NCBI GenBank assembly: GCA_022509025.1 | Contig: JAFLUB010000013.1 | Location: 1-59,486, forward strand | Origin: Oscillospiraceae bacterium | Lineage (GTDB): Bacteria > Bacillota > Clostridia > UBA1381 | Length of the DNA stretch: 59,486 nt | Direction: 5' to 3' | Part shown: piece after piece, positions 8,878-35,990 of the stretch | Position numbering within the stretch: the first letter of the stretch is position 1 | Layout: each line of letters opens with the position of its first letter | Made by a program: the position numbers and the translations under genes | The notes under the pieces: model-generated | Told to the model about the DNA's origin: nothing | The model's input: only the letters and a program-made list of their open reading frames with translations | Database searches by the model: none

Positions 8878-9012
8878 ATAAATGGTGAGATGCGCAGTCT
8901 ATTGCATCACAATCCCAACGCGGGGAAAGAGACAAGCAGATTGCCATTTTGAGGAGTGCAGACGTATGTTGATACTTCAAGCTCCGATAAATGGTGAGAT
9001 GCGCAGTCTATT
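8878..9012 (-). repeat. Dispersed structured repeat, copy A (diverged, with 26-bp flanking direct repeats)
   Basis: Shares the core of copies B (23383-23504) and C (35867-35990): AAGCAGATTGCC, TTTTGAGGA, CAGACGTAT, GATACTTCAAG, CTCCGATAAA and GAGATGCGC in the same order. A perfect 26-bp direct repeat (8878-8903 and 8987-9012) brackets the core, and its second copy contains the stop codon of the flavoprotein gene. The 5' third seen in B and C is not conserved here. Confidence 0.75.
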
Positions 9013-10219
9013 TCGCCGCGTTCAAGCCGGCAAGATAGCCTGACGCCCATGCCCATTGCAAATTATACCCTCCGCAGTCACCGTCAATGTCGAGAACCTC
9101 ACCGACAGCATACAGATTATTGACTAATTTTGATTCCATGGTGGCAGGATTAAACTCACTTGTCACAGCGCCGCCCTTAGTCACCTGAGCGTTATTCCAG
9201 GACATTGTTCCTGTTATATTAAAATCCCATTTCTTTATCGTATCGCAAATACGATTGATTTCATTTTCGGTAAGAGTGATAGCATATCTGGAAAGCGGCT
9301 CTATGAGCGCGCATTTCAGAACTGTCTGCCCTACGCGCTTAGGAAACATTCCGACAAAGAAGTTCTCAAGCGTTATTTTGGGTCTTTGAGCAATACGTTT
9401 CAGTATTTCATTATATAATTCTTCACGTGTAAATCTATCCATAATATCAAGCGATACAACTTTGTTATCGTAAAGTCTCGACGACAGCGAGAATATCGCA
9501 GGTCCGGAAATGCCGTACTCAGTGAATAAGACTTCGCCGAACTCACTTGATTTTCCCAGCGTCACATTAGCGTCAAGCTTGATACCCTTTAGCTTTTTAA
9601 CAACATCCGTTTCCGTTTTCAGTTGAACTAAAGACGGAGTGAGCGCAGTTATTTTGTGTCCAAATGATTTCAGTATCTCATATCCCATTCCTTTTGAGCC
9701 GAGATTGGGAGCGGCTTTTCCACCAGTCGCAATGATAACTTTATCGGCTCTTTCCGCCCGGCCATCATATGACTTTACAAGAAAGCCGTCTTCCTTTTTT
9801 GAAACAGAACTCACTTCAAAAGAGGTGACAACCTTGATATTCTCCATTTCTTCTATCTTAAAACGGAGAACGTCCAGTACCGATGAGGCCTGATTTGAAT
9901 AAGGGTACACCTTGCCGTCCTGTTCAATATTTATCACTATACCCAGCTTTTCAAAAAATTCTATCGTTTCATCAATCCAGAATCTGTTTTTCGCGCCCAG
10001 AATAAACTTAGGATTTTCCCCGTGATAGTTCTCTAAGCCGGCATTCATATTTGTCATATTACAGCGTCCGTTTCCGGTAGCAAGTATTTTTCTGCCTATC
10101 CTCTCGCTGCTCTCATATACTGTAACAAGAGCTTCTTTGTTTTCCGCTGCCGCTATAGCAGCAACAAGGCCTGAAGCGCCACCGCCTATAATAGCAACAC
10201 TATTCGTCATTGTTTTCAT
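9008..10219 (-). CDS. BaiN/YhiN (HI0933)-family FAD-dependent oxidoreductase
   Basis: 403 residues. The N-terminal dinucleotide-binding motif VAIIGGGASGLVAAIAAAE, then RIGRKILATGNGRCNMTN, the IIATGGKAAPNLGSKGMGYEI segment and the C-terminal NLYAVGEVLDIDGDCGGYNLQWAWASG are the family signature. Members are flavoproteins of mostly unknown physiological substrate; one homologue, BaiN, acts in bile-acid dehydroxylation, but that should not be transferred here. Two starts (10219, 10210) both overlap the end of the preceding AI-2E gene, so translation is probably coupled. The stop codon sits at the edge of repeat copy A. Confidence 0.9.
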   Translation of the reverse strand: MKTMTNSVAIIGGGASGLVAAIAAAENKEALVTVYESSERIGRKILATGNGRCNMTNMNAGLENYHGENPKFILGAKNRFWIDETIEFFEKLGIVINIEQDGKVYPYSNQASSVLDVLRFKIEEMENIKVVTSFEVSSVSKKEDGFLVKSYDGRAERADKVIIATGGKAAPNLGSKGMGYEILKSFGHKITALTPSLVQLKTETDVVKKLKGIKLDANVTLGKSSEFGEVLFTEYGISGPAIFSLSSRLYDNKVVSLDIMDRFTREELYNEILKRIAQRPKITLENFFVGMFPKRVGQTVLKCALIEPLSRYAITLTENEINRICDTIKKWDFNITGTMSWNNAQVTKGGAVTSEFNPATMESKLVNNLYAVGEVLDIDGDCGGYNLQWAWASGYLAGLNAAK

Positions 10220-11342
10220 TTTCCTCTGAAATATCTTTCTTTGTCTCTCTTGTTTTTATATACTCTGACGCAACAGCGCGTATAATAGCAACAACAGGTA
10301 CCGAAATAAGCATTCCTACAAATCCGAACAGCGTACCGCCTACCGATACGGCAAATATAATCCATAACGGTCTTATTTCAAGAGTCTGTCCCATAATTTT
10401 GGGTCCCAAGAGATTTCCGTCAATCTGTTGCAGAATAAGCAATATAATACCTGTCCATATTCCCTTCCATAGTCCTCCTGTGATAAAGGTTACTCCTATC
10501 GCAACCACACAGGATATTATAGAACCAAAATACGGTATCATATCCATAGCTCCTATAAACAAGCCCAGGATAAGCGCGTATCTGACCTTAAGAACAGCCA
10601 GCACAATACTTGAAATTATAGCCATTATAATGCTGCAAGTCAGGCGGCTGTAAATATAATTGGTAAAAATATCATTTACACGTTTTGCATGATTTATAAC
10701 CGCATCCACCGTTTTTTGCTTCAGGAATACTCCAATAAGGTATATCAGGGAATTCTGCAAACGCTCTTTGTCTATAAGCATATATATAGACGCAACAATA
10801 GCAACAAACGTATCAAATACACCGCTCGTTGCGCTGAACACGCCTTGCGCGTACTTGCCGAACTGGGTCATATCTATGGAATCAAACAGCCTTTCAATGC
10901 CGTAATTAAAATCCAGATTTGCAAGATTAAATCTATTGGCAATTTCAAAACCTGACAGATAATTCTTAAATGCTTCAATATACCCCGGAGCGCTGTTATA
11001 TAAATCAGTAATGTTATTATACAATGCCGGAATAAGCATCCTCAGTATAAGCAGCACTATCGCAAAAGCAGTAAGGTATATAATTATGATACTGATTCCC
11101 AAAACATGTTTTGATATGAACGGATTATTTATTTTTCCAAGAAGCTTTTGAAGTCTTTTAGCCGGCATATTGAGTATATACGCTATTATAAACGCCAGCA
11201 TAAATGGCTTCATCGCACGCAAAACCGTGCCGATATACCCGGTTATATGACTGAAATTATCAAAAGTTTTATAAACCGCTATAACTGCTACACAAAATAC
11301 AAAAGCAACTATCCACCCGTAATATTTCTCAAATTTTTTCAT
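10200..11342 (-). CDS. AI-2E transporter family (YtvI/PerM-like) membrane protein
   Basis: 380 residues with about eight membrane spans: a pair of N-terminal helices, a large soluble loop (about residues 130-215), then the conserved C-terminal bundle with ILGLFIGAMDMIPYFGSIIS and LLILQQIDGNLLGPKIMGQTLEIRPLWIIFAV, which is diagnostic. The family includes transporters and Na+/H+ antiporters; the substrate cannot be read from sequence. GCGAGGGA precedes the ATG. The gene overlaps the following flavoprotein gene by 11-20 bases. Confidence 0.9.
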   Translation of the reverse strand: MKKFEKYYGWIVAFVFCVAVIAVYKTFDNFSHITGYIGTVLRAMKPFMLAFIIAYILNMPAKRLQKLLGKINNPFISKHVLGISIIIIYLTAFAIVLLILRMLIPALYNNITDLYNSAPGYIEAFKNYLSGFEIANRFNLANLDFNYGIERLFDSIDMTQFGKYAQGVFSATSGVFDTFVAIVASIYMLIDKERLQNSLIYLIGVFLKQKTVDAVINHAKRVNDIFTNYIYSRLTCSIIMAIISSIVLAVLKVRYALILGLFIGAMDMIPYFGSIISCVVAIGVTFITGGLWKGIWTGIILLILQQIDGNLLGPKIMGQTLEIRPLWIIFAVSVGGTLFGFVGMLISVPVVAIIRAVASEYIKTRETKKDISEENENNDE

Positions 11343-11381
11343 TTTTTCCCTCGCAGTTCATTATATATTTAAGCACAAAGA

Positions 11382-11409
11382 GCGGAAAAGATTTCCGCCC
11401 TTATGTATT
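11382..11409 (-). terminator. Weak terminator after the SLH-domain gene
   Basis: GCGGAAA/TTTCCGC stem with a 3-base loop, followed on the minus strand only by TCTTTG. It may attenuate rather than end transcription into the AI-2E gene. Confidence 0.4.
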
Positions 11410-11428
11410 CTTTATGAAGATAAAATTT

Positions 11429-13276
11429 TTATTCAGCAACAATTGTAAACAGCTTACCTACAAACACACCATTTGATACAGTACCGTCCACGCGAACAGT
11501 CTGTCCAACCTTCACGTCTTTCATCTTCTTTGACTTACCGTCTACTGATACAAATGTTGTAGTTTCATCCTTACAGTATACATTTCTCGCCTCTCCGTCA
11601 GTAACGCCTTCCGGCATTATGCTAACTACACCAAATGATGTATTTATCGCAGTGACAACGCCTTTCATGCTTCCCGATGACTCCTGAGTTGATGTTGCAA
11701 CTATCTTTATTATTGCATCGCTTTCAACCGTTATCTTAACAAGATCTCCAATTCTGAAATCATATAGACTGCCTTCATCACCGTTTATAAGAATCTCAAC
11801 ATCTCTGGGAATCTCGTATTCTTTATCTTCACTGTCTACTCTTACAGTCATCGTTGAATTCGGTGACGCTATCGTCAGCGCTTTGATGGTTCCCTCGACC
11901 GTCTTTTTAGACGAAGTAGCGGATATTTTCGTTATTACTCCGTATTGAAGCGTAAGTGTTACTCTGTCGCCCGTATAAATACTGTCTAATCCTGTAGTTG
12001 CGTCATTTTTCTTTACAGTAACATCCTCACTCACTTCATAAGTCTGTCCGTCGTAAACGCTGTTGCCGTGGCTTATTGTCATTTTAACACCGTTTGCTAT
12101 ATCAAGCTTTTCAACTATAGCTCCGGAAATTGTTGATGTTTTCGTTTCGCCTGTTATTGCTGCTACTTTCCCGTCTACAAGACTTAAGATTATAATGTCA
12201 CCTTTAGTAAAGCTTCTTACGGTGGCAGGACTTCCGTCATATGTCACAACGATATTGCCGGCGCACTCATAACTTTGGGTCTCTCCCTCTTCATCTGTAA
12301 CTCTTATCGTTGTCTTACCTGAAGTGGTTACGTAGCTCACATACTGACCCCTGACGGTTTTATCAGGAACAGCTGAAATTACCTCAACTCCGACAAGTGT
12401 TTTGTCTGAGAATACGAAAATAGCATCCAGATTTGTGTCAAGGTCTTTGGGTTGAGTTTCATCTCCCATTCTTCTCATAACGGTATCATCAGTATATACA
12501 TACTTATTCTCTTCCCCGTCTTCATCAATTACGGTGATTTCTCTTTTGTCCGAATTTACATTCATAAGCTTCATTCGTCTGAACGAATAACCGGTCTTGT
12601 CTACAGTTCGCGAAAGCATAACAGACATCTGGCTTCTCTTAACCTCAGTATTAGGCGAGAAAGAACCTTCTCCCATACCTTCCATTATACCGGCCTCACT
12701 GGCATAAGCAACATACTGAATAGCGTTAGACGGTACTTCTCTTGAGTCTGTATAATCAAGGGCAACGCCAAGGTCGGAAAGAGCCTTTTCCTCTCCGCCC
12801 ATTGCCTTTGTTATTATTATAGCCGCCTCATAACGCTTCATAGGCGTGTCTTTCTCATTGCCTTTAAGGTATGTGTCAAGATCCGCTCTTTTCAAAGCGC
12901 CTCTGTACATAAGATAAGCTATTTCATTTGTACCCCATCTGAGATTATATCCATCAATAATGCTGTCGTATTTTTCATGAGCAATTTTAATTATCGGCTC
13001 ATTTACCGGATCAACAGAACCCATTGCTCTTGCAAACAGGGACAAAGCTTCCAGTCTTGTCACATCATTATCCGGACGGAATGTTCCGTCCTCATATCCT
13101 GTAATAAGGCCTTTCTCAGCCATTGCTTCTATATAGCCTCTTGCCCAACTGAAATTATCTGTATTTATATCACTGAATCTCGAAAGCGCTTCAGTGTTTG
13201 CCGGCTCAGCGAACACAGGTATCGCCATAGCCAAAGTGACTAATCCGGCAATTGCCGCTCTTATACATTTTTTCAT
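11429..13276 (-). CDS. S-layer homology (SLH) domain surface protein
   Basis: 615 residues. The signal peptide (1-23, ending VFA) is followed by three SLH repeats: about 33-85 (FSDINTDNFSWARGYIEAMAEKGLITGYEDGTFRPDNDVTR), a diverged one about 90-155, and about 160-220 (YVAYASEAGIMEGMGEGSFSPNTEVKRSQM). The rest is a series of beta-rich modules of about 65-80 residues with GD(I/R)V(T/K)(I/L)T-like strands. SLH domains bind pyruvylated secondary cell-wall polysaccharide, which the CsaB-containing operon at 21-29 kb could supply. GAAGGGAG precedes the start MKKCIRAAIAG. It has its own promoter. Confidence 0.9.
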   Translation of the reverse strand: MKKCIRAAIAGLVTLAMAIPVFAEPANTEALSRFSDINTDNFSWARGYIEAMAEKGLITGYEDGTFRPDNDVTRLEALSLFARAMGSVDPVNEPIIKIAHEKYDSIIDGYNLRWGTNEIAYLMYRGALKRADLDTYLKGNEKDTPMKRYEAAIIITKAMGGEEKALSDLGVALDYTDSREVPSNAIQYVAYASEAGIMEGMGEGSFSPNTEVKRSQMSVMLSRTVDKTGYSFRRMKLMNVNSDKREITVIDEDGEENKYVYTDDTVMRRMGDETQPKDLDTNLDAIFVFSDKTLVGVEVISAVPDKTVRGQYVSYVTTSGKTTIRVTDEEGETQSYECAGNIVVTYDGSPATVRSFTKGDIIILSLVDGKVAAITGETKTSTISGAIVEKLDIANGVKMTISHGNSVYDGQTYEVSEDVTVKKNDATTGLDSIYTGDRVTLTLQYGVITKISATSSKKTVEGTIKALTIASPNSTMTVRVDSEDKEYEIPRDVEILINGDEGSLYDFRIGDLVKITVESDAIIKIVATSTQESSGSMKGVVTAINTSFGVVSIMPEGVTDGEARNVYCKDETTTFVSVDGKSKKMKDVKVGQTVRVDGTVSNGVFVGKLFTIVAE

Positions 13277-13315
13277 AACAATTCTCCCTTCACTATACAC
13301 ATAAGCTATGATATA

Positions 13316-13344
13316 ATTTTAACATAAACACTTATTTTCTGCAA
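13316..13344 (-). promoter_or_regulatory. Sigma-A promoter of the SLH-domain gene
   Basis: On the minus strand TTGCAG, 17 bases, TAAAAT with extended -10 TGT. Confidence 0.65.
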
Positions 13345-13422
13345 TAGATTTTTATCGTTTTCTGTAACATTCAGATTAAATTAACTTTGCAAAACGATTT
13401 CAGTTTACGTTATTCCTTTCTA

Positions 13423-13451
13423 TTGATTTTTCACTTATAATAGTGTATACT
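13423..13451 (+). promoter_or_regulatory. Promoter of the DUF5107-GH2 unit
   Basis: TTGATT, 17 bases, TATACT, about 37 bases before the start codon. A TATAAT at 13436 lacks a -35 partner. Confidence 0.6.
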
Positions 13452-13487
13452 TTAACTGTAATTATTCCGGAGAAAGGAAGGATGAAT

Positions 13488-16400
13488 ATGGATAAGGTTA
13501 AAATATGGATAGATGATGTTACCATTCCCACTTATGAAGCTGGAGAATACAGTAAAATCCCAATGTTCCTTGAAAAAAGAGTGTATCAGGGAAGTTCTGG
13601 ACGCGTATACCCGCATCCTGTATGCGAGAGCGTTTCAGACGAAAAAAAAGATAAGACATACACAGCTGTTTATATGGAAAATGAATACCTTTTTGTTATG
13701 GTACTGCCGGAAATAGGCGGCAGAATACAGCGTATACTCGATAAAACAAATAATTATGATGCGGTATACTACAACGAAGTAATAAAACCCGCGCTTGTCG
13801 GCTTAGCCGGTCCGTGGATTTCCGGCGGTATAGAATTTAACTGGCCGCAGCATCACAGACCGTCTACATTTGACCCTGTTGATTTTACAACCCGCGAAAA
13901 CGAAGACGGTTCAGCTACAATCTATGTAAGCGAAATAGAAAAAATGCACCGCACAAAGGGCATGGCAAAATATACTCTTTATCCGGGCAAAGCATATCTT
14001 GAAATAAAGGGACAGCTTTATAATCAGACGGACAGACCGCAGACATTTCTATGGTGGGCAAATCCCGCTGTGCCGGTAAACGACTATACAAAGTCAATTT
14101 TCCCGCCGGATGTTCATGCTGTCATGGATCACGGCAAGCGTGACGTTTCACGATTCCCTGTTTCCACAAGTACATATTATAAAATGGATTACAGCGAGGG
14201 CGTGGATATATCACGATATAAAAATATACCTGTTCCCACCTCCTATATGGCTTATCACTCCGACTATGACTTTATCGGAAATTACGATTATAATAAAGAG
14301 GCGGGGCTTCTGCATATCGCCGACCATCATATTTCTCCCGGCAAAAAACAATGGACATGGGGATGTGGTGATTTCGGGCAGGCATGGGACAGAAATCTTA
14401 CAGACAAAAACGGTCCGTATATAGAGCTTATGACAGGAATGTTTACCGATAATCAGCCCGACTTCACATTCATAGCGCCGTACGAGGAAAAGACATTTAC
14501 ACAATATTTCCTGCCTTATAAAAATGTCGGAGCCGTCAAGAACGCTACTCTTGACGCGGCAATAAACCTTGAGGTTATGGATGGAACAGCGTTTGTGAGC
14601 GTGTATTCTCCGGATAAAAAAGAAGTGACTGTTTCACTTTCCGGAAAAATAGAAAAATACATAAACGAAAAATTTGAAATTTCTCCCGTAAAACCATATA
14701 CGGCAGCAGCCATACTCATTGACGATAATGAGACAGATTTAACTCTCACAGTAAAAGATAATGCCGGCAATGAAATCTGTTCATATTCTCCGCTGCCTGA
14801 AACATACGAGAAAACTCCCGCGCCGGCTGAGCCTTGCGCTAAGCCGAAGGATATACATTCTCTTGAGGAATTGTATCTGACGGCGTTGCACCTTGAGCAA
14901 TACCGTCACGCAACCTATAACCCCGAGGATTATTATCTTGAAGGGCTTCGCCGCGACAAAACAGATATACGTCTGAATAACGCATACGGAAGATATCTTT
15001 ACAGTCACGGAGAATTTGAAAAAGCGGAGAAGCATTTCAGAGCGGCTATCGAAAAATCCATATGGAAGAACCCAAATCCCTACGACTGTGAGCCGTATTA
15101 TAATCTTGGTCTTGCACTCAGAAAGCAGGGCAGATTTAACGAAGCGTTTGACGCGTTCTATAAATCCATCTGGTCCGGGAGTATGCAGGATAAAGGTTTT
15201 TATCAGCTTGCCTGCATAAGCGCTCTCAGAGGCGACTTTAAAGCGGCGCTTGAATTTGTTGAGCAGTCTCTTATAAAAGGCTCTCATAATTTAAAGGCGC
15301 GCAATCTGAAAACCACTTTGCTACGTCTGTCAGGCAAGCTTGTGGACGCCAAGACTATGGCGCTTAAAACAATGGCGATAGATCCTTTAAATTACGGCTG
15401 CCGCTATGAGCTCTACCGCGTAACCGATGATTTCACAGTTCTTAATGAGTTGACAGTTATAATGCGCAACGACGTGGATAACTATATTGAGCTTTCTCTG
15501 GACTATAACGAATTCGGACTGTACGACGAGGCGGCAAAGATTCTCGCGCTTATTTCCGAGGCGGATAAAGCAATGCTCCACTATTATATGGCGTATTACT
15601 CAAAGAGCGAGATTGACCTTGAGGTAGCCGCAAAATGCAGCGTTGACTACTGCTTCCCTGTTCGTCTTAACGATATTCTTGTTTTAGAATATGCTATGGA
15701 GCATAACAAGGAAGATGCGCACGCGCCATATCTTCTCGGCAATCTGCTGTATGATAAAGGACAATGGGTGAAGGCTTTCAGATGCTGGACGGTTTCGAAT
15801 AATCTTGACAGCTCTAATCCTATTGTACACAGGAACCTGTCTCTTGCGTATTTCAATAAACTGAAGGACAAGGACAAAGCTGTTTCGGAAATGGAAAGAG
15901 CCTTCCGTCTCGCACCTGATAACGCACGTATTCTATACGAGCTTGACCAGCTTTATAAACAAACCAATATGCCTGTAAAAAAACGGCTTAAAATACTTGC
16001 AGATAATCAGGAGCTTATATCGGAACGCGACGATCTCTATACGGAATACGTAACGCTCCTTAACAGCTTAGGATATTATGACAAGGCTTTAAAGGCTATA
16101 ACATCACGCTCCTTCCATCCCTGGGAGGGCGGCGAGGGAAAAATCCCCGCGCAGTATAAAAAAGCCCTGATTGGACTCGCATCAGAATGTATTGAAAACA
16201 GGGATTATGATACTGCAGTTGAATATCTCAACCAAGCACTTGTTTATCCCGAAAATATCGGTGAGGGCAAGCTCTATGGAACTCTTGACAATGATATATA
16301 TTATATGCTCGGAATGGCATACAAAAATACAGATCACATAAAGTCAGACGAATGTTTCAGAATGGCTTTGTGCGGAGGCAGTGACCTGTCATCTGCCGTT

Positions 16401-22223: not shown

Positions 22224-23336
22224 TTAATTTATCAAATCATAATATACTTCTTCTGTTTGTCTGGTCATCGCAGACGCGGTAAAAGTTTTTTTGAATATCT
22301 TTTTTGAATTTTCAGAAATCTCCCTGTAAAGACTTTCATCATTTAAAAGTTCCTCTATTTTGTCCGCTATCGCTTTGGCATTTTGCTTTGGTACGACAAA
22401 GCCGTTCACACCGTCTTTTATAACTCCGGGATTACCTCCGAAATCAGATACTACCGCTGGAATACCCAGACTCATTCCCTCAAGCAGCGCAAGAGAGGTT
22501 GCCTCTGTTCCGTAGGAGGCATTTACCTGGATATCCGTAACCGCCATCAGCTTTTGCACGTCATGGATAAATCCGGTGAATATAATCTGCTCCTGTCTGT
22601 TCAGACTCCTGACTTTTTCCTTTAACTGCTTTTCATAAGAGCCTGTTCCCGCTATATAAAATTTCAACTTGTATCCTTTGCGAAGCAGCCGGTCAGCTGC
22701 GTCTATAAAATATTCATGTCCCTTTATATCCTCAAGCCGCGCGATTATTGATATGGCTCTGAATGGTTCATACAGGTCGAAACGTTCTTTAATAATACGC
22801 GTTTCATCTGCGGAGACGGGAGAAAGTCCCTCCACGCCGTTCAGGACAACCTTTATCTTACTTTCTTTAATTCCCGTATCAGTAAGATTATCCTTAGCGG
22901 CCTCAGCCACGGCGATTATGCTGTCTGCAAAATAATTGTTTATCATGCCGTTTATGCATTTCCCTAATCCTTTAGAAATCCGCTTTGACGGAGGGAACAC
23001 GCTATGGCGCGTGTAAACCACCTTCGCGCCCGCAAATCTTGCCGCGATACGCGCTGACATGCTCGCGTGTGTATGAACTATATCAGGCTTTTCACGTTTA
23101 AATATTCCCTTAAGCGCCTTTATCGCTCCCTTATCAAGTGATTTATCCGCTATTCCGTCAACTTCTATAACTTTAATTCCCATTTTGTCTATATGCGGCT
23201 TCAAAAGACTGTTATACGGAAGCACAACCTTAACGTCAAATTTATCGTAATTAAAATTCTCAAGCAGCGTCAACAGGCATTTCCCCGCTCCGCCTATATT
23301 TGTATCCGATGACACCTCTATAACTTTTATTTTCAT
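22224..23336 (-). CDS. Glycosyltransferase family 4
   Basis: 370 residues, GT-B fold. The N-terminus IEVSSDTNIGGAGKCLLTLLENF is the acceptor-domain glycine loop. The C-terminal nucleotide-sugar site is ISIIARLEDIKGHEYFIDAA, IFTGFIHDV and the EX7E motif TEATSLALLEGMSLGIPAVVSDFGG. It transfers a sugar from an activated donor during wall-polysaccharide synthesis; donor and acceptor are unknown. The start MKIKVIEVS follows GGAGGG; a longer frame starting at 23399 would run through repeat copy B and is rejected. Confidence 0.9.
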   Translation of the reverse strand: MKIKVIEVSSDTNIGGAGKCLLTLLENFNYDKFDVKVVLPYNSLLKPHIDKMGIKVIEVDGIADKSLDKGAIKALKGIFKREKPDIVHTHASMSARIAARFAGAKVVYTRHSVFPPSKRISKGLGKCINGMINNYFADSIIAVAEAAKDNLTDTGIKESKIKVVLNGVEGLSPVSADETRIIKERFDLYEPFRAISIIARLEDIKGHEYFIDAADRLLRKGYKLKFYIAGTGSYEKQLKEKVRSLNRQEQIIFTGFIHDVQKLMAVTDIQVNASYGTEATSLALLEGMSLGIPAVVSDFGGNPGVIKDGVNGFVVPKQNAKAIADKIEELLNDESLYREISENSKKIFKKTFTASAMTRQTEEVYYDLIN

Positions 23337-23382
23337 TTTATCCCTCCATTTCATAAATATATAAGGGCGCACATTGTAATGT

Positions 23383-23504
23383 GGAAAAGCCGGTCGCAAA
23401 TTGCATTTGCTGCTCGCCCATGCGACCCGGAATCAAGCAGATTGCTCTTTTGAGGAACACAGACGTATATGGATACTTCAAGTTCCGATAAAGGGTTAGA
23501 TGCA
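23383..23504 (-). repeat. Dispersed structured repeat, copy B
   Basis: About 122 bp, near-identical through most of its length to copy C (35867-35990). Shared blocks in order include GGAAAAG, CAAATTGCATTTGCTGCTCG, CCCATGC, GGAATCAAGCAGATTGC, CTTTTGAGGAAC, GACGTATAT, GATACTTCAAGTTCCGA and AGATGC. It lies between two leftward genes; its right end supplies the last two codons and stop of the upstream Wzy-like gene. Confidence 0.85.
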
Positions 23505-25376
23505 CTGCTGATTTTTCACATTACCGGTTATGTGCTTTAATGACATACCTAGCGCCATGAGCATAAAGAAGATTGCCATTACTCTGTAGTTATAGAACGT
23601 ATAGTCAAACATACTCTGTATAAGAAATCCCATAACTCCGCTTGCGATTGCAAGAGATAACATAGAATTCAACTGTTTTTTATCCTCACTTCTGTATACC
23701 ACAGACATCTTTTTAAGAAATACTCCCTGTGTGACAAGGAATATTCCAAGCCCGCCTATTCCTGCCTCTACAAGGAGCTGCAAGAACAGGTTGTGCGAAT
23801 GCGGTGCGATAATTGCGTTATATGAGAAGAACGGATAAACATGCGAGAACGCCGCCTCACCCATTCCTATTCCGCCGAGCCAATAATGCTTCATCATTCC
23901 AAGAGTACCCATCCATATATACACTCTATAAGACGTGGATGAATCCTCCATATTTCCGACACTCATTATACGGTCAACAATCGTCTGAGGCACAATAAAC
24001 GGCAAAATACATATCACTATAGGAACTATTCCCCACCATTTACCTTCATAGAAGGTGACAAAGATTACCACGCTTAACATAAAGCCTATCCAGCAGCCTC
24101 TTGACTGCGTAAGTATAAGACACAGAGCAAGGACAAGGAACATTAGTCCGTATGTCCACTTTGAAAGTCCCCTCCATTTTTCCTTCAGCATAAACACTGC
24201 CGCAACAGGCAGAACAAGTAATAGATATTCTCCAAGCACATTCGGATTGCCGAGAGTCGAGTAGACACGCATTACAGAATCTTCAAACATTTCCTCGTCA
24301 ATCCATGCATTTGAGGTTGTCCAGCCGAACAGATACTGCATAATTCCATATAACGCGACAAGCGCGCCTGATATTACAAGTAGTTTAAACAGCCCATATA
24401 ACTGTTCTTTAGTCTCCACAGAGTTTATAACCGTGAAATAGAACATAACAAACACAAAGTACATTGCCCAGACTTTAAGGCTATCCCCTCTTGCAAATGA
24501 CGTAAAAGATGAGACAAGCAATACCAGTAAAAAGAGAATTATGCATATGCCTACTCCGTCAAAACGCCATTTAAAATCACGTTCCTTTATCGATTTGATG
24601 ATAAGAGAAAGCGTGGTCCATATACAAAGCCCCGCAAGAATCATGGTCGGCACAAACGGTGCCAGAAAAACAGCCGCATATACACCTGTAACAGGCGCAT
24701 ACATCACCAGTACAAGTCCGAACACGGCAAACGGTATAACCGCTCCGTAAAGTATATTAACACTCATTGCCGCGCCTGTTATAATTCCTGCCGCAAGCGC
24801 TAGCAGGAGACGAAGCACACCATGTGTTTCTTCCTCATTAAAGAACTCAAAATCAAGATTTTTAAACCCTGCCATACTTTTTATTATTCCAACGAATTTA
24901 CTCGGATTAAGGAATGACATAAGGTTATAGTTAAAGATACAAAGTATCGCTCCGACGGCGCCTACGATAAGCGCTATCTTTGAAATATGTCTGCCCATAA
25001 CGCAATAACCCAGAGCCATAGAAATAAGCATAATACCGAAAAATCTGGTATTGACAGCCATAAAGTTCTGTATATAAGTCTTTGCCCAGGTACATATAAA
25101 GCTTCGTGAAATATTTTTTTCAAAGAAGTCACCGGCTTTATTCTTTAAAGCATTTAGAAACGCAAAGGGACTGAAAACTACCCTTTTAGTAATACTGCCT
25201 TCCCCCGCGCCCTCTGTTTTGCTGCCGTGAAGCCAATTCATTATTGCGCTTCCGTTCCATGAGGATAACACAGCATTATAAATACACATAAGTAATGCAT
25301 ATACCGCGCTTTTCTTAAACCATTCTGCTAATGTCTTAAAAAACGAAGCCAAAGACGATAAGATAACACTGTTCAT
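23496..25376 (-). CDS. O-antigen ligase / Wzy-like polymerase family membrane protein
   Basis: 626 residues with about twelve or more membrane helices. The Wzy_C-type region is recognisable by LVLALCLILTQSRGCWIGFMLSVVIF, YRVYIWMGTLGMMKHYWLGGIGMGEAAF and the conserved periplasmic-loop HSHNLFLQLLVEAGIGGLGIFLV. Such proteins polymerise or ligate lipid-linked polysaccharide on the outer side of the membrane. An N-terminal extension of about 90 residues (from MNSVILSSLASFFKTLAEWFKKSA) is unusual for the family. AGAGGTG precedes the ATG. It follows murJ closely in the same operon. The last residues QQCI arise from repeat copy B. Confidence 0.88.
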   Translation of the reverse strand: MNSVILSSLASFFKTLAEWFKKSAVYALLMCIYNAVLSSWNGSAIMNWLHGSKTEGAGEGSITKRVVFSPFAFLNALKNKAGDFFEKNISRSFICTWAKTYIQNFMAVNTRFFGIMLISMALGYCVMGRHISKIALIVGAVGAILCIFNYNLMSFLNPSKFVGIIKSMAGFKNLDFEFFNEEETHGVLRLLLALAAGIITGAAMSVNILYGAVIPFAVFGLVLVMYAPVTGVYAAVFLAPFVPTMILAGLCIWTTLSLIIKSIKERDFKWRFDGVGICIILFLLVLLVSSFTSFARGDSLKVWAMYFVFVMFYFTVINSVETKEQLYGLFKLLVISGALVALYGIMQYLFGWTTSNAWIDEEMFEDSVMRVYSTLGNPNVLGEYLLLVLPVAAVFMLKEKWRGLSKWTYGLMFLVLALCLILTQSRGCWIGFMLSVVIFVTFYEGKWWGIVPIVICILPFIVPQTIVDRIMSVGNMEDSSTSYRVYIWMGTLGMMKHYWLGGIGMGEAAFSHVYPFFSYNAIIAPHSHNLFLQLLVEAGIGGLGIFLVTQGVFLKKMSVVYRSEDKKQLNSMLSLAIASGVMGFLIQSMFDYTFYNYRVMAIFFMLMALGMSLKHITGNVKNQQCI

Positions 25377-29354: not shown

Positions 29355-29362
29355 ATAAAATT

Positions 29363-30704: not shown

Positions 30705-30866
30705 TATCAAGCGCATTATATATCTGTTACAATAAAAAGACAAATTACACCAACATAATTTTATCTTACCCATTTATTCCCTTTTGTATAACAAAAATAA
30801 GGACAGCGGGATATGCAAAGTGTATCTTGTACCCGGCATATTATATTAATGGGAGGATGATGTGGT

Positions 30867-31550
30867 ATGTTCGGCATATTATTTGAATGGATACAAACAG
30901 TGCTTATTCTGGCGGGATATGTGAGCGGCAGCGCTACGTTTCCTAAACCTTTAAGCGCCGCAGAAGAGCAGAAATATATCGATGAGTATGCTGAGGGAAA
31001 TGAGGACGCAAAGAATATACTGATTGAGCATAATCTTCGTCTGGTTGCTCATATAGCAAAAAAATACACTGACGAAAAAAATCTTGAGGATTTGATTTCT
31101 ATAGGTACAATCGGGCTTATAAAAGGCATAAACACGTTTAACCCGAAAAAAAACAATAAACTCTCCACATACATATCCCGCTGTATCGAAAACGAGGTAC
31201 TCATGTTTATGCGGAGTTCAAAAAAACTTCAGAATGAGATATCAATAGACGAAAGTATAGGCACAGACCGCGAGGGAAACAACATGACCTTTTCCGATGT
31301 GCTTACCACCGACAGCGCGGATATATCCGATATTATCTCAGGAAAACTTGAAGCGCAAAAACTCTATAAAGCTATGAAAAAGACGCTCAACACTAATGAA
31401 ATAAACATTATATGCTGGAGATACGGACTTGGAAATCAGAAAAAGAAAACCCAAAAAGAAATTGCGGATATTCTCGGCATAAGCCGAAGCTATGTCAGCA
31501 GAATTGAGAAAAAATGCCTTGAACGTCTCGCGCAGGAGCTTAAACAATGA
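30867..31550 (+). CDS. sigK: RNA polymerase sporulation sigma factor SigK (uninterrupted)
   Basis: 227 residues. SigK directs late mother-cell transcription during sporulation. A hydrophobic pro-sequence (FEWIQTVLILAGYVSGSA, residues 6-23) precedes FPKPLSAAEEQKY, as in pro-SigK, so activation by SpoIVFB-type cleavage is expected. Region 2 is NILIEHNLRLVAHIAKKY, DLISIGTIGLIKGI and YISRCIENEVLMFMR; region 4 ends KTQKEIADILGISRSYVSRIEKKCLERL. The gene is continuous, with no skin element splitting it, unlike in Bacillus subtilis and some Clostridioides difficile strains. GGGAGG lies 10 bases upstream. It converges on trmD. Confidence 0.93.
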   Translation: MFGILFEWIQTVLILAGYVSGSATFPKPLSAAEEQKYIDEYAEGNEDAKNILIEHNLRLVAHIAKKYTDEKNLEDLISIGTIGLIKGINTFNPKKNNKLSTYISRCIENEVLMFMRSSKKLQNEISIDESIGTDREGNNMTFSDVLTTDSADISDIISGKLEAQKLYKAMKKTLNTNEINIICWRYGLGNQKKKTQKEIADILGISRSYVSRIEKKCLERLAQELKQ

Positions 31551-31578
31551 AATCCCCGCTTCATGAGCAGGGATTTTT
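31550..31578 (+). terminator. Shared terminator between sigK and trmD
   Basis: AAATCCC and GGGATTT arms with an inner GCT/AGC pairing. It overlaps the last base of the sigK stop and the trmD stop codon, ending both converging genes in very little space. Confidence 0.7.
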
Positions 31579-32304
31579 CTTATATTCCTCTAAAAACTTT
31601 ATATCCTCTTTTGTAAGCTCTGCTTTTTCGAGCATATCGGGACGTTTTTTTAGCGTGTTAATAAGAGACTGTTCACGCTTCCATTTTTCCACGTTAGCGT
31701 GATGTCCCGATATAAGCACATCAGGAATTGAAACGCCGTGCCACTCGGCAGGGCGCGTATACTGCGGATACTCCAGAAGTCCGTTAAAATGCGACTCATT
31801 TTCATACGACTGCTCCGAAGCAAGAACTCCGGGAAGAAGCCTTGAAACAGTGTCGATAACAGCCATTGCCGGAATTTCGCCGCCTGTCAGAACAAAGTCG
31901 CCTATAGACAGTTCCATGTCCACAATCTCGTCAATAACTCTCTGGTCAATGCCCTCATAATGCCCGCAAAGAAGTACTATATGCTCCTTTTCTGACAAAT
32001 CAACCGCAACAGACTGACTAAAAATCTTACCCTGCGGCGACATATATACAGTGAACGGCTTATATGAAAGTCCCTCCGCAACAGACATATACGCGTCATA
32101 TACCGGCTGCGCTGTCATAAGCATTCCACCGCCGCCGCTATAAGGATAATCATCGGTCTTTCGGTGCTTATTAGCAGAAAAATCACGTATATCTATAAAA
32201 TTCATTTCTACAAGACCGTTTTCGCGCGCGCGTCCGATTATGCTGTCGCCTAAAACAGCATCAAACATATGAGGGAACAGTGTCAGCACATCAAATCTAA
32301 TCAT
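31561..32304 (-). CDS. trmD: tRNA (guanine-N1)-methyltransferase TrmD
   Basis: 247 residues. TrmD makes m1G37 in tRNAs reading CNN codons and prevents +1 frameshifting. The SPOUT trefoil-knot segment [38 protein letters not shown] is intact, as are [26 protein letters not shown]-like residues (here [10 protein letters not shown]) and the catalytic Asp region ([14 protein letters not shown]). The start overlaps the rimM stop (ATGA). Last gene of the ylxM operon; the usual next gene, rplS, is elsewhere in the window. Confidence 0.97.
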   Translation of the reverse strand: [247 protein letters not shown]

Positions 32305-32810
32305 AATTCGTCAAGCCCTTCCATCATGTGTACAGTAACTTTCTTAGAATCTATATCTATGCTAAGCACTACCTCGTCTATAACCGGTAATAACAGATTC
32401 TTCTTGCCCTCGCGCTTCACATCATATATATCATTGCTGCCGGTGTTAAAAACATCAGCTATCACACCGATTTTTTCACCTTCGTCGGTTACAACCTCAA
32501 GACCGATAAGGTCGGCAATATAATACACACCCTCAGGAAGCTCACCGAGCATTTCGCGCTCAGCATAAATAACCTGATTTTTATACTTCTGCGCTTCATC
32601 GATATCCTTTATCTCTTCAAACTTTATTATGAGATTGTTCTTCTGGTATTTTATTCCCTTTATGTTAAGGCGTTCACTCTCATTTCTGCGCTTAATATAC
32701 ACATATTCTATATCTTCAAAAACCTCGGGATAGTCTGTCCATGGTACGACCTTAACCTCTCCGCGAAGTCCGTGCGTATTCACAATTTTACCTACTTCAA
32801 GTAATTCCAT
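32301..32810 (-). CDS. rimM: 16S rRNA processing/30S maturation factor RimM
   Basis: 169 residues. RimM binds S19 and assists maturation of the 30S head. The N-terminal domain begins LLEVGKIVNTHGLRGEVKVVPWTDYPEVF; the C-terminal PRC-barrel contains YYIADLIGLEVVTDEGEKIGVIADVFNTGSNDIYDVKREGKKNLLLPVIDEVV. The start MELLEV follows GAAAGGA; a longer in-frame reading would overlap khpA and is rejected. Its stop overlaps the trmD start by four bases. Confidence 0.96.
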   Translation of the reverse strand: MELLEVGKIVNTHGLRGEVKVVPWTDYPEVFEDIEYVYIKRRNESERLNIKGIKYQKNNLIIKFEEIKDIDEAQKYKNQVIYAEREMLGELPEGVYYIADLIGLEVVTDEGEKIGVIADVFNTGSNDIYDVKREGKKNLLLPVIDEVVLSIDIDSKKVTVHMMEGLDEL

Positions 32811-32874
32811 ATCTTTTCCTTTCATTTTACGGGATATATGCAAAAAGGGCTTACAGATGCAAGCCCCTTCTATC

Positions 32875-33108
32875 CTATTGTAAGATTTCAACCGCGGCCT
32901 TTTTATTTTCACGGCTTGCGGCAGCTTTAACAACAGTTCTTATTGCTTTCGCAATTCTGCCCTGTTTACCAATCACCTTACCCATATCACTGTCGGCAAC
33001 TCTGAGTTCAAGAGTAACCGTCTGGTCATCGTTAAGAACCTCTTTAACGTCAACCTCATCAGGATAGTCAACAAGTGATCTGGCGATTATCTCCAATACT
33101 TCTTTCAT
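32875..33108 (-). CDS. khpA: KH-domain RNA-binding protein KhpA (YlqC)
   Basis: 77 residues with a single type-II KH domain; the RNA-binding GXXG loop is GKQGR in DMGKVIGKQGRIAKAIRTVVKAA. KhpA pairs with KhpB and influences sRNA use, cell elongation and division in Firmicutes. It sits 16 bases after rpsP, its canonical place. AGGAGGGTAGG-type site upstream. Confidence 0.95.
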   Translation of the reverse strand: MKEVLEIIARSLVDYPDEVDVKEVLNDDQTVTLELRVADSDMGKVIGKQGRIAKAIRTVVKAAASRENKKAAVEILQ

Positions 33109-33124
33109 TAGCCTACCCTCCTAA

Positions 33125-33367
33125 TTAGATAATGTTAGACTTCTTCAAAAGAGCCTTAACAGTATCTGTCGGCTGTGCACCATTAGAAATCCACTTCTTT
33201 ACAGCGTCTGCATCAATATTAACAGTAGCCGGATCGGTCAGCGGGTTATATGTGCCTACTTCCTCGATAAATCTTCCGTTTCTTGGGTATCTTGAATCTG
33301 CAACTACTACTCTATAAAAAGGAGCCTTCTTTGCACCCATTCTTCTGAGTCTGATTTTTACTGCCAT
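33125..33367 (-). CDS. rpsP: 30S ribosomal protein S16
   Basis: 80 residues, standard S16. Recognised by [46 protein letters not shown] and the C-terminal [32 protein letters not shown] precedes the ATG. Follows ffh after 61 bases in which I see no further signal. Confidence 0.98.
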
Positions 33368-33428
33368 TGTTTTTCACCTCCCGTAAATTTCAATAATATA
33401 TCATAAAGTATAAAATACCTTATTAGCT

Positions 33429-34772
33429 TTATCTGTGTTTCCTCAGGCGTTTGAGCATTCTTGACTGCTTTCCGCCGGTAAATTGCTTCATCATCTTCTG
33501 CATATCGGCAAACTGCTTTAAAAGCTGATTTACGTCCTGAACCCGCGTGCCGCTTCCCTTGGCAATACGCACCTTACGGCTTGCGCCGATAATATTCGGC
33601 TTTCTGCGTTCTTCTTCCGTCATGGACTGTATTATAGCTTCTATGTGAAGCAGTCTCTTAGCGTTTTCCTCAGTATCAACCGATTCAAGCATTTTCTTAT
33701 CAATACCGGGCAGCATACCAAGTATCTGTGAAAATGAACCCATTTTCTTTATCTGCCTGAACTGTTCAAGAAAATCGTTCAAATCAAACTGCTGTTTGCG
33801 TATCTTTTCCTCTAATTCCTGAGCTTTTTTCTCGTCAATAGCTTCCTGCGCCTTATCTATAAGTGTCAGCACGTCACCCATTCCGAGAATTCTTGACGCC
33901 ATTCTGTCCGGATGGAACTGTTCAAGGTCGCTCAGTTTTTCACCGACAGACGCGTACTTTATCGGCTTTCCTGTCACCTGCTTTACCGAGAGTGCCGCGC
34001 CGCCGCGTGTGTCACCGTCAAGCTTTGAAAGGATAACACCTGTTACGTCAAGCTCTTCGTTAAACGACTTTGCGACGTTTACCGCGTCCTGACCTGTCAT
34101 TGCGTCAACAACGAGAAGTATCTCGGTCGGATTCACCTCCGCTTTGATATTCTTAAGCTCGTCCATAAGCTCAGTATCTATATGAAGACGTCCCGCCGTA
34201 TCAAGAATAACCGGGTCGTTTCCATGCTTTATTGCATGCGCTATCGCTTCCTTAGCGATTGTCACAGGACTTACATTATCACCCATAGAGAACACAGGAA
34301 TCTGCACCTGTTTTCCCAGAACCTCCAACTGCTTTATAGCCGCCGGACGATACACGTCGCAGGCTACCATAAGCGGTCGTTTGTTCATTTGCTTCATCAG
34401 ATTAAGCGATAATTTTCCAGTCGCGGTTGTTTTACCCGCGCCCTGCAAGCCGCACATCATGATAACTGTAGGCGGCTTTGCCGAAAACTCAAGGCGGGCA
34501 GTATCACCGCCTATCATCTGAGTAAGTTCATCATTTACTATCTTTACAAGCTGCTGAGCGGGAGTTAATGATTCCATTATTTCCTGTCCCAGCGCTTTTT
34601 CAGATACTACATTTACAAATTCCTTAACAACCTTAAAGTTAACGTCAGCTTCCAATAGAGCCAGTTTTATTTCGCGCATGGCATCTTTAATATCTTTTTC
34701 GTTAAGCTTGCCTTTGCCGCGAAGCTTTTTAAAAACGCCCTGCAGCTTGTCGCCTAAACTTTCAAATGCCAT
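33429..34772 (-). CDS. ffh: Signal recognition particle protein Ffh
   Basis: 447 residues. Ffh binds signal sequences and SRP RNA and, with FtsY, delivers ribosomes to the Sec translocon. The NG domain shows MMCGLQGAGKTTATGKLS (G1), DTAGRLHID (G3) and SKLDGDTRGGAALS (G4). The Met-rich M domain (about 325-447) contains GSFSQILGMLPGI and RIAKGSGTRVQDVNQLLKQFADMQKMMKQF. The SRP RNA partner is encoded in the same window at about 42.7 kb. Confidence 0.98.
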   Translation of the reverse strand: MAFESLGDKLQGVFKKLRGKGKLNEKDIKDAMREIKLALLEADVNFKVVKEFVNVVSEKALGQEIMESLTPAQQLVKIVNDELTQMIGGDTARLEFSAKPPTVIMMCGLQGAGKTTATGKLSLNLMKQMNKRPLMVACDVYRPAAIKQLEVLGKQVQIPVFSMGDNVSPVTIAKEAIAHAIKHGNDPVILDTAGRLHIDTELMDELKNIKAEVNPTEILLVVDAMTGQDAVNVAKSFNEELDVTGVILSKLDGDTRGGAALSVKQVTGKPIKYASVGEKLSDLEQFHPDRMASRILGMGDVLTLIDKAQEAIDEKKAQELEEKIRKQQFDLNDFLEQFRQIKKMGSFSQILGMLPGIDKKMLESVDTEENAKRLLHIEAIIQSMTEEERRKPNIIGASRKVRIAKGSGTRVQDVNQLLKQFADMQKMMKQFTGGKQSRMLKRLRKHR

Positions 34773-34801
34773 AAACCCTGACTCCTTTCTATAAATTCAA
34801 T

Positions 34802-35134
34802 CTATATTTCTTCGGATATTCTTTTAAGAATTTCCTCTGCCTCTTCTATTTCTTTAAATCCACACTTATTAAGCAGTTCCCGAAGTTTTCCGATATGTGA
34901 GTTTATATTATGAAAACGCTTCACAATCCCAAGCTGTTCCTCGTATTCCACAAGATGCTTTTCACCCTGCTTTATCGAGTCTCTCACACCCTGACGGCTT
35001 ATATCTATTTCTTCCGCAATTTCAGCCAGAGACAAATCCTCGTTATAATACATATCAATCGCAAAACGCTGCTTTTCTGTAAGAAGTTGTCCGTAGACGT
35101 CAAGTAAAATAGTTATATTCAAATCTTTCGGCAT
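34802..35134 (-). CDS. ylxM: YlxM-family helix-turn-helix protein
   Basis: 110 residues. The sigma-70-region-4-like HTH is LLTEKQRFAIDMYYNEDLSLAEIAEEIDISRQGVRDSIKQGEKHLVEYEEQLG. YlxM is always next to ffh in Firmicutes and affects SRP function by an unclear route. First gene of the ylxM-ffh-rpsP-khpA-rimM-trmD operon, with a consensus promoter just upstream. Confidence 0.95.
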   Translation of the reverse strand: MPKDLNITILLDVYGQLLTEKQRFAIDMYYNEDLSLAEIAEEIDISRQGVRDSIKQGEKHLVEYEEQLGIVKRFHNINSHIGKLRELLNKCGFKEIEEAEEILKRISEEI

Positions 35135-35172
35135 TTACATCACCTGTAAAGCATTTTTATTTTACACCCAAT

Positions 35173-35201
35173 AGTTTACACGATATATCATGCTTTGTCA
35201 A
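35173..35201 (-). promoter_or_regulatory. Promoter of the ylxM-ffh-rpsP-khpA-rimM-trmD operon
   Basis: On the minus strand TTGACA, 17 bases, TAAACT, about 38 bases before the ylxM start codon. Confidence 0.75.
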
Positions 35202-35218
35202 TATATTTTTTATCAAAT

Positions 35219-35824
35219 TTATTCTTTTTGTTCATCAATGTTTTGTACAATTTCACAAAACTCCTCATAGCTCAGCAATCTATTAAGCACATCCAAAAGC
35301 ATATTGGCTGATATTTTCATAGGAATGCCAAGAGAAGCCGCTACGGCACATCGCTTTTCACGGCTTCTCTCTCCTCCCGAAAGACCGAGCTTAAAAAGAT
35401 CGGTCTTTGTTATTGTCCGTCCCTCTTTTCGCGTATCAGCGGTGCCGTCAATGGAGCAGCCCGCTTTCTTAAGCGAATCAAGAATTATATCATCTTTTAT
35501 ACCTTCCACTCCCAGAAGTCCTTCTTTTCCCGCTTCGCTCTTTCTTTTTTCTTTCCCGAAAACTTCAGGAACATACGCGTGTTTTACCCTGTCCTCCGGA
35601 ATTGACTGCTTTATGTAATTTCTTATCCTGAACCCGGCAGTATCAGAATCTGTCAGTATTACAATACCTGTTTTCTCAGCCATTTTCTGTATACTCTCAA
35701 GTATCCTTCCGTCCGTGAACACACCAAAACCGTTCGTTGCTATTATGACAGTATCAACAAGTCTCGACAGCTTTATTTTATCATATATTCCTTCAACTAC
35801 TATTGTTTCTTTAATCTTGTACAT
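35219..35824 (-). CDS. Toprim/DUF4093 protein, RNase M5-like
   Basis: 201 residues. The N-terminal Toprim domain (about 3-100) has the catalytic glutamate in ETIVVEGIYDKIKLS and the DxD-type motif in GIVILTDSDTAGFRIRNYI, as in RNase M5, which matures 5S rRNA. The C-terminal half (DUF4093) includes TKTDLFKLGLSGGERSREKRCAVAASLGIP. Whether it truly processes 5S rRNA is inference. The start MYKIKETIV follows GGAG at 8 bases; the longer frame enters repeat copy C. Confidence 0.8.
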   Translation of the reverse strand: MYKIKETIVVEGIYDKIKLSRLVDTVIIATNGFGVFTDGRILESIQKMAEKTGIVILTDSDTAGFRIRNYIKQSIPEDRVKHAYVPEVFGKEKRKSEAGKEGLLGVEGIKDDIILDSLKKAGCSIDGTADTRKEGRTITKTDLFKLGLSGGERSREKRCAVAASLGIPMKISANMLLDVLNRLLSYEEFCEIVQNIDEQKE

Positions 35825-35866
35825 AAAAAAACTCCATTTCATCGTCCTGCCGCATAAATTTAACAC

Positions 35867-35990
35867 GGAAAAGGCTGGTCACAAATTGCATTTGCTGCTC
35901 GCCCATGCAATCTGGAATCAAGCAGATTGCCCTTTTGAGGAACGGCGACGTATATAGATACTTCAAGTTCCGAAAAAGAGCGAGATGCGC
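35867..35990 (-). repeat. Dispersed structured repeat, copy C
   Basis: About 124 bp and close to copy B, with one single-base indel near the left end. It contains the nested hairpin GGAAC ... GTAT-CTAT-ATAC ... GTTCC (read on the minus strand) and an extra perfect hairpin GCAATCTG/CAGATTGC. It lies between two leftward genes, 24 bases beyond the stop of the upstream one. Confidence 0.85.

Follow-up and report, generated by a model that had tools for sequence, protein, structure and literature searches.

The question raised by this locus is whether a foldable sequence that recurs three times between genes is a non-autonomous mobile repeat or a shared cis-acting RNA, the two readings between which the earlier note on this DNA had left the choice. 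The window, that is the whole stretch of DNA analysed, comprises 59,486 nucleotides of an Oscillospiraceae genome of 2.49 Mb. Copies A, B, and C were present on the minus strand where they had been placed, each between two leftward genes and in the same orientation as these, and the motifs GGAAC/GTTCC in B and C, GGAG/CTCC in A, and GTAT-N4-ATAC were all found as claimed. The resemblance among the three copies far exceeds chance, copy A matching B and C at E 5e-17 and copy C matching B at 2e-37. The shared blocks within about 80-124 bp were confirmed; the limits were not, since the outer stem TAACGYG..CRCGTTA closes a larger unit, which is a 106-nt imperfect hairpin in type I (copy A) and a form of about 147 nt with an additional hairpin in type II (copies B and C). 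Some copies also carry a tail with a Shine-Dalgarno (SD) sequence. The features in the window are as follows:

8916..9023, minus strand: copy A, type I hairpin, 108 nt (E 2e-24 with model R1)
8873..8905, minus strand: incomplete second copy that consists solely of the 5′ arm and immediately follows copy A
23377..23523, minus strand: copy B, type II hairpin, 147 nt
23392..23428, minus strand: extra type II hairpin of copy B
23334..23376, minus strand: tail of copy B, degenerate, containing the SD AATGGAGG and the glycosyltransferase start codon
35861..36009, minus strand: copy C, type II hairpin, 149 nt, flanked by a DUF6514 gene and a Toprim/DUF4093 gene
35877..35913, minus strand: extra type II hairpin of copy C
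35822..35860, minus strand: tail of copy C, likewise degenerate, containing the SD AATGGAG and a start codon

The 37-nt hairpin carried by B and C has no counterpart in A, and the incomplete second copy next to A accounts for the direct repeat that bounds copy A, as first delimited, on either side. Upstream of copy A lies an HI0933-like flavoprotein gene (9008-10219, minus strand) whose stop codon is inside the copy; likewise, the stop codon of the Wzy_C (O-antigen ligase) gene upstream of copy B falls within copy B. Measured from the end of the unit, the next start codon is 63 bases away for A, 40 for B, and 36 for C, compared with the 25-50 bases proposed earlier.

The apical loop, CTTGAAGTAT-N4-ATACG, is conserved, while the lower stems are re-paired. 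Most copies end in TAACGYG/CRCGTTA, and in two copies (L103 and L110) the ends differ yet still pair. The 5′ edge supplies TAA, and its GTG form, TAACGTGA, is a stop in two of the three frames. The tail, about 40 nt long and composed of a small hairpin and an SD with the consensus GGAATGGAGGATTA, lies outside the terminal inverted repeats and stops at the next gene's start codon; it was present in 56/121 copies examined (76 of 77 own copies, one being at a contig end, plus 45 copies of relatives from 11 genomes). A second, otherwise different hairpin class, type III, has the apical loop in common with the unit; it includes L138 and L139 of the 77 own matches, and three genomes retain it ahead of the same fabG-like gene. 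Neither the complete hairpin, nor the SD-bearing tail, nor the second hairpin class had been noticed earlier. Matches are mostly 100-150 bp long and maintain no ORF. Since the ORFs of some downstream genes extend into the unit, a long open frame crossing it drew attention; this was rejected because loop variants such as GTATAAAC place a stop in that frame. A terminator role was discarded as well, a T run being absent after the hairpin, as judged by reading the sequences rather than by a terminator scan.

Sequence searches of the genome with copies A and C returned 45 (best E 2e-27) and 46 places (best E 9e-43), respectively, besides the query itself. The covariance-model search that the earlier note had recommended located at least 78 sense places, a lower bound because 150 of 1486 first-look candidates were scored. 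A second model search gave 118 matches, of which 41 were antisense shadows at identical coordinates, leaving 77; with two tandem copies (C12:7017 and C36:23188), the genome holds 79 sense matches in all, two of them later assigned to type III. One of the 77, L140 on contig C24, is outside the 78. The copies are scattered over the genome, and both tandem and nested copies occur. Matches were found in 28/37 genomes of one family versus 0/24 genomes of other families, with 9/37 family genomes lacking a match under strict filters. Carriage by phages was dismissed, with 0 matches to two exact patterns in a viral contig collection. In keeping with the view that this is not a recognised class, the Rfam 15 covariance models gave 0 matches over the copies at the gathering threshold, seven loci searched up to E 5 gave four chance-level matches to unrelated families, and no description of the unit was found in the literature searched. 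The Rfam intron models had no match to a group II intron in the window or the seven loci, and SD-start insertion is not mentioned in the portion of the group II intron literature consulted (PMC2882425).

The pairing of the main unit is well supported. Among 24 own copies, 18/38 pairs changed on both sides; in 88 copies drawn from 13 genomes, which score E 1e-16 or better in 86 of the loci collected, the figure rose to 27/38 and was reached in 0/500 shuffles. The compensatory change proposed for the outer stem stands, and it is in the outer stems that the informative changes sit. The inner GTAT/ATAC arms, described as identical, were invariant in the first 24 own copies aligned and are uninformative on pairing there because they never vary; they are exact in 66/77 own copies, and the last pair of the inner stem is C-G instead of U-A in 13 of the 88 aligned copies. 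Thus neither an absence of further copies nor stems broken as often as kept, either of which had been named as refuting the idea, was observed. For the tail hairpin pairing support is only modest: with 16 tails of one length, picked from 61 candidates, the covariation score was equalled by 2/500 shuffles and the number of pairs changed on both sides by 140/500.

Selection on RNA structure had been suggested from such changes; the pairing is indeed conserved, and it fits RNA and DNA structure alike. Hairpin-templated repair or template switching can make two hairpin arms match, and the paired changes could have such a DNA origin instead. The lower-stem triplets are hypervariable but complementary, as if each came from one templated event, and the opposite strand folds too, as the antisense shadows indicate. 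We nevertheless regard this origin as rather unlikely, considering that conservation is uneven, with the apical loop nearly constant and the lower stems free to change, and that the position before genes is strand-specific.

Comparison with relatives demonstrates the mobility of the unit: they lack it at four junctions that it occupies in this genome, namely RecG, TlyA, ZnuA-ZnuC, and ZnuB-Fur. A motif check that took in all 80 loci (25/30 RecG, 25/30 TlyA, and 15/20 ZnuC loci were also listed) detected the unit in none of the fetched loci of relatives (29 RecG, 29 TlyA, 19 ZnuC, and the same 19 for Fur); two loose motif matches in the relatives' Fur stretch proved to be unrelated sequence. 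At the TlyA, ZnuC, and Fur sites, three of the four, the tail with its SD arrived together with the hairpin. For tail copies, three empty sites were checked; in each case the hairpin separates the native SD from the native start, and the carried SD therefore occupies the place of the native one. In a tree, copies cluster by genome, with own copies on one side of a branch of weak support (76). The unit has TA at both ends, the TA..TA belonging to the stem, and the RecG junction fits TA insertion; no target-site duplication was demonstrated, the empty sites other than RecG being too diverged.

The copies are also strongly oriented. We scored 60/77 own copies on both sides using ORFs of >=100 aa, which gave 50 ++, 6 -+, 3 --, and 1 +-. 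In co-directional gaps, 50 copies were sense and 3 antisense (p = 5.5e-12), divided into 30:3 without the tail and 20:0 with it. The choice between a mobile repeat and a cis-RNA hence does not hold as posed, the copies being both mobile and strongly sense before genes, and the earlier interpretation is on the whole partly supported. The strong sense bias of tailless copies is not predicted by simple tolerance.

An ordinary MITE, with a TA target, TAACGYG/CRCGTTA inverted repeats, random orientation through a DDE transposase, and purifying selection leaving the harmless sense copies, appears rather unlikely. The unit is short, non-coding, and multi-copy, with sites empty in relatives, and its length, copy number, tandem and nested copies, terminal TA, and RecG junction are all MITE-like. 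However, the ends do not appear to be fixed (L103 and L110), the tail is outside the inverted repeats but arrives with the hairpin at three sites, and even tailless copies are sense-biased. Moreover, DDE_3 (IS630), the sole DDE family searched, was found in 2/37 genomes, neither this one nor a copy-rich one, and IS630 was rejected as mobiliser on this count.

Still less probable, and unlikely in our judgement, is a cis-acting RNA regulator, that is a protein- or ligand-binding leader or a processing site spread by its usefulness, with mobility being old. Sense bias both with and without the tail, strong pairing support, an apical loop conserved and common to type III, and the maintenance of type III ahead of the same fabG-like gene all argue for it. 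Against this, the four junctions checked lack the unit in relatives, 9/37 family genomes have no match, and the flanking genes have no common function, neither at those junctions (RecG, TlyA, ZnuC, Fur) nor, as had been noted, in the window (HI0933-like, Wzy_C, glycosyltransferase, DUF6514, Toprim).

Placement relative to stop codons and SDs was then scored. The stop codon of the upstream ORF was inside the unit in 24/58 cases, <=12 nt before it in 18/58, and farther away in 16/58. An SD-like tetramer lay within 14 nt left of the unit in 28/56 tail copies versus 13/65 tailless ones (p = 9e-4), in addition to the tail's own SD; the remaining 28/56 tail copies had none on the left. Four windows further upstream of tail copies gave 1, 4, 4, and 5 of 56; these windows often overlap coding regions, in which such tetramers may be less frequent. 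Among the best-scoring copies of relatives, which are not a random sample, 43 of the 45 were used: 38/43 had a sense SD and start downstream, in 24 of the 38 at 37-43 nt after the hairpin, and 5/43 had no downstream start found. Of the 38, five have a further start on the opposite side, and for one (L237) the start is the GTG of a second unit. Exposure of the SD by the unit was not supported, single-sequence folds giving a mean unpaired value for the SD of 0.44 with the unit and 0.57 without it.

We consider the unit to be probably a non-autonomous mobile repeat living in translation-initiation regions and gene-gene junctions. It may be tolerated because it restores both stop and SD; it would be moved in trans by some enzyme that recognises the apical hairpin in its folded state, whether of RNA or of single-stranded DNA, and the tail form would either target the SD-start spacer or be favoured there by selection. 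More tentatively, the SD itself could be the integration target, with fixed-orientation insertion into the SD-start spacer leaving the native SD on the left and a replacement SD on the right, and with a process of movement that acts on a folded strand, of RNA or of single-stranded DNA, by way of the apical hairpin common to the second class. Selfish repeats usually harm their insertion sites, and the SD-to-start gap is a gene's most sensitive spot. If true, this would give mobile DNA a new means of being tolerated within operons, supply new 5′ UTRs naturally, and provide a test case for insertion that is orientation-specific and possibly guided by RNA; the common apical hairpin is a concrete bait for a protein that moves or binds the unit.

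A leader peptide encoded by the unit (native SD, GTG, VKNKRRISPFFGT and a stop), its translation controlling the downstream gene, is very improbable. Copies with the 5′-box GTG do have an SD in front more often (32/56 versus 9/65 without it; p = 8e-7), but this GTG is missing in 65/121 copies, and some of the 32 stop at once, frameshift, or pass the usual TGA (e.g., L111, L269, L005, L119, and the six of genome G021). The proposal was rejected, the reading frame not being maintained among copies.

Among known systems, other short repeats resemble the unit most closely. The bcr1 repeats of the Bacillus cereus group, lineage-restricted and with mobile-element traits, are similar, and we know of no SD-start placement or carried SD in bcr1. 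Integron attC sites have RYYYAAC...GTTRRRY ends, a cassette array, and an integrase; relative to this consensus, the bases of the unit outside TAAC/GTTA are not conserved and its copies are scattered. A title on bcr1 is among the references of PMC2267715. BOX and RUP of Streptococcus pneumoniae have terminal inverted repeats and target duplications, RUP being linked to IS630-Spn1. Like RUP, BOX, and SPRITE, the unit is short, multi-copy, intergenic, and foldable; BOX is modular, SPRITE lies near CDS ends, and these elements are thought to be moved in trans (PMC3049150). It differs from them in ends that can change with pairing kept, in that no IS630 gene was found here, in its strong sense bias, and in the carried SD. 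The TAACTGA repeats of marine Beggiatoaceae, 7-bp direct repeats with little SD character, are also mostly forward, just 5′ of start codons, and before genes without a functional theme (PMC4679880), whereas the unit forms a long hairpin, carries an SD of its own, and shows visible insertion.

REP sequences are palindromic repeats that fold and may be moved by a Y1 transposase (RAYT) acting on single strands, and a RAYT-like gene is present in this genome; the unit is much longer, has no GTAG/CGTC tag, and was not seen flanking that gene (compared with the excerpts consulted of PMC3733652). An untagged 106-nt hairpin is accordingly outside the REP/REPIN definition of a 20-40 bp palindrome with a GTAG or CGTC tag. 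Any Y1 transposase was found in 3/6 copy-rich versus 12/17 copy-poor family genomes, and RAYT-length Y1 genes in 2/6 versus 2/17 (p = 0.27). Their presence does not follow copy number, and a Y1/RAYT transposase was rejected as mobiliser. Copies were absent from the 2.4 kb around one RAYT-like gene, which ends with its contig (L318), and a single copy was located about 1.3 kb after the RAYT-like gene of genome G021 (L319).

The three copies of an intergenic structured repeat described in the earlier note lie in the window as reported; their folded units span:
8916-9023, minus strand, copy A (type I)
23377-23523, minus strand, copy B (type II)
35861-36009, minus strand, copy C (type II)

BLAST searches of the genome from which the window comes (the own genome) gave 46 matches to copy A and 47 to copy C, the query itself counted in each. 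A covariance model, built from 24 aligned type I copies with one structure, returned 99 rows in this genome; 21 were set aside as lower-scoring rows with identical coordinates on the opposite strand, shadows of a near-palindrome, leaving 78 places. One more copy, on contig C24, came from BLAST and a further model search and brought the total to at least 79 places in the own genome, a lower bound since scoring covered only 150 of the 1486 first-look candidates. Under strict filters the repeat had matches in 28 of 61 genomes, all in one family (28 of 37) and none in the 24 genomes from other families of the order; copy number within the genus ranged from none to dozens. An exact pattern search found ten stretches, at least five of them no more than 200 bases from the end of a contig, in five uncultured Firmicutes/Clostridia/Oscillospiraceae/Ruminococcus assemblies, and viral contigs gave no match. 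We studied 77 own copies with their flanks, two of which (loci L138 and L139) proved to be a second hairpin class, type III.

The type I unit, as in copy A, is about 106 nt long. Its outer stem, TAACGYG/CRCGTTA, is followed by an A/T stretch, a triplet that is hypervariable yet complementary, with a constant C-G, then GCA/TGC and an internal loop; the fold goes on with CCCTTTT/AAAAGGG and then GGAAC/GTTCC, up to the apical TTGAAGTAT-N4-ATACGTCGG. Type II units (copies B and C) are ~147 nt long and carry an extra hairpin, GGTTGCATGGGCGAGCAGCAAATGCAATTTGCGACC, in place of the 3' lower arm. By a scripted call, the hairpin is followed by a tail in 29 of the 76 own copies scored and in 27 of the 45 from relatives, running from YRATTTGTG through a small GC hairpin and GGAATGGAGGATTA to the start codon. 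Five of 11 pattern matches had a tail with no hairpin, and three of these look like remnants of a deleted hairpin. At L105 (C27:23799), a hairpin and Shine-Dalgarno (SD) sequence, GCCGCAAGTCGGCAGAAGGAGAGA, flanks the element on both sides, as though an older tail had been joined by a new unit.

Changes on both sides were seen at 18 of 38 pairs among the 24 own copies, which none of 500 shuffles equalled; the paired cells fell from 92% to 38-49% when the partner was shifted by 1-3 columns. Across 88 copies from 13 genomes, 27 of 38 pairs had changed on both sides (0/500 shuffles) and 321 of 3339 cells did so compared to a shuffled mean of 69.5 (0/500), in an alignment that was fitted to the model and is thereby biased towards structure. 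The GTAT/ATAC stem of the earlier note is exact in 66 of 77 own copies; it is invariant in the 24 and hence uninformative on pairing there. At L103 and L110 the outermost stems are quite different and pairing is kept. Selection on RNA is one reading of the paired changes; another is hairpin-templated DNA correction.

Comparison with relatives revealed sites occupied in the own genome and empty in relatives at four junctions, whose gene names are our reading of the translations. At RecG, the own genome has GTAGAG-[unit]-GGTAAGATGTAATATG and two relatives of the same genus have GTAGAATAGGAGTATAATG. The other three sites carry the unit with its tail between a left flank and ATG, the left flank and the relatives' empty site being CAGGAATTA versus CAGGAGTTATGTAATG at TlyA, TAAGGAGA versus TTAAGGAGAAAAAATG at ZnuA-ZnuC, and AAGAAGGTGAT versus AAGGTGATAGAATG and similar at ZnuB-Fur; at all three, the hairpin separates the native SD from the native start. 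By motif check, the unit was absent from all the relatives' loci retrieved (29 RecG, 29 TlyA, 19 ZnuC and the same 19 for Fur), in some of which the upstream gene differs; two loose matches in the relatives' Fur stretch were unrelated sequence. All 43 own copies in a tree of the 88 lay to the same side of one branch (support 76); labels clustered by genome (19 changes versus a shuffled mean of 43.3); single forks are weak because columns are few, and copies from genomes G002 and G006 formed no groups. Tandem copies occur at L008, L091 and L048.

A second repeat of ~70 bp, AAGAACCCGACCCGC...TTGTTGTTTCACAAT, lies inside or beside element copies:
L011 (C78), L065 (C9) and L067 (C3), inserted inside the unit
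L124, L131, L133 and L140, also present, with several consecutive copies at L131

In co-directional gaps between ORFs of at least 100 aa, 50 copies were sense and 3 antisense (p = 5.5e-12), or 20:0 with tail and 30:3 without. The stop codon of the upstream sense gene fell inside the unit in 24 of 58 copies (in 11 of these exactly at the TAA of TAACG), at most 12 nt before it in 18 and further away in 16. In a set of 121 copies drawn from 12 genomes, 28 of the 56 with tail and 13 of the 65 without had an SD-like tetramer (GGAG, GAGG or AGGA) within 14 nt to the left of the unit. For the tail copies, four windows lying further upstream gave 1, 4, 4 and 5 of 56, a contrast for which composition may partly account since these windows often lie in coding sequence. 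Of 43 relatives' copies, 38 had an SD and a start codon downstream in sense, at 37-43 nt past the hairpin in 24 of these, and none was found in the other five; 5 of the 38 had both on the other side too, none only there, and one start (L237) was the GTG of a second unit.

Both edges of the unit may render insertion tolerable: TAACG supplies a stop to the upstream gene, TAACGTGA stops two of three frames, and the tail supplies an SD to the downstream gene. Simple tolerance accounts for tail copies in SD-start spacers, but leaves the 30:3 sense bias of tail-less copies unexplained; either the sense hairpin has a useful function as RNA, or orientation is set during insertion. Folding did not show an SD freed by the unit.

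Among the 37 genomes searched for DDE_3 (IS630), it was absent from the own and other copy-rich genomes. Y1 genes did not track copy number. RAYT-like Y1 transposase genes of ~250 aa were found in two copy-rich genomes:
L318, about 1590-2342 (G000:C18, own genome)
L319 (G021:C3), one element copy ~1.3 kb after the gene

No Rfam family matched, and no description of this repeat family was found in the open literature searched. The closest systems there are the pneumococcal RUP/BOX/SPRITE repeats (PMC3049150), TAACTGA repeats (PMC4679880) and REP/RAYT systems (PMC3733652); unlike in REP systems, the own RAYT-like gene comes without the defining tag. In its behaviour the unit resembles a small mobile interspersed repeat; it is only a possible member of the IS-derived MITE class, because the analysis showed neither fixed ends nor a target duplication nor a cognate transposase.

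Type III is a different long hairpin crowned by the same apical hairpin, lying sense before genes that we read as rplK, fabG-like, aroH and others:
L138 (C34:41885)
L283 (C3:6867)
L285 (C47:3703)
L286 (C6:36407)
L288 (C25:19114)

With four sequences only, 12 of 36 pairs had changed on both sides (0/500 shuffles), and 32 of 500 shuffles equalled the further pair types. The type III model gave strong matches at low copy within the family, and many of its weaker rows were type I copies. The class looks older, since in three genomes, G001 and G008 among them, it stands before one and the same fabG-like gene. The most promising candidate for what a common protein would recognise is the apical hairpin that both classes share. 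Weak matches to the type III model (E = 5e-4) with a different apical loop occurred at L314 (G043:C395:4367) and L315 (G007:C10:71606), one in another family and one before a gene read as rplF; they are possibly a wider superfamily or possibly chance matches.

The window also contains:
42729-42827, plus strand, bacterial small SRP RNA (RF00169, 63.3 bits)
46004-54001, minus strand, very long ORF of 2665 aa
37635-42518, minus strand, very long ORF of 1627 aa
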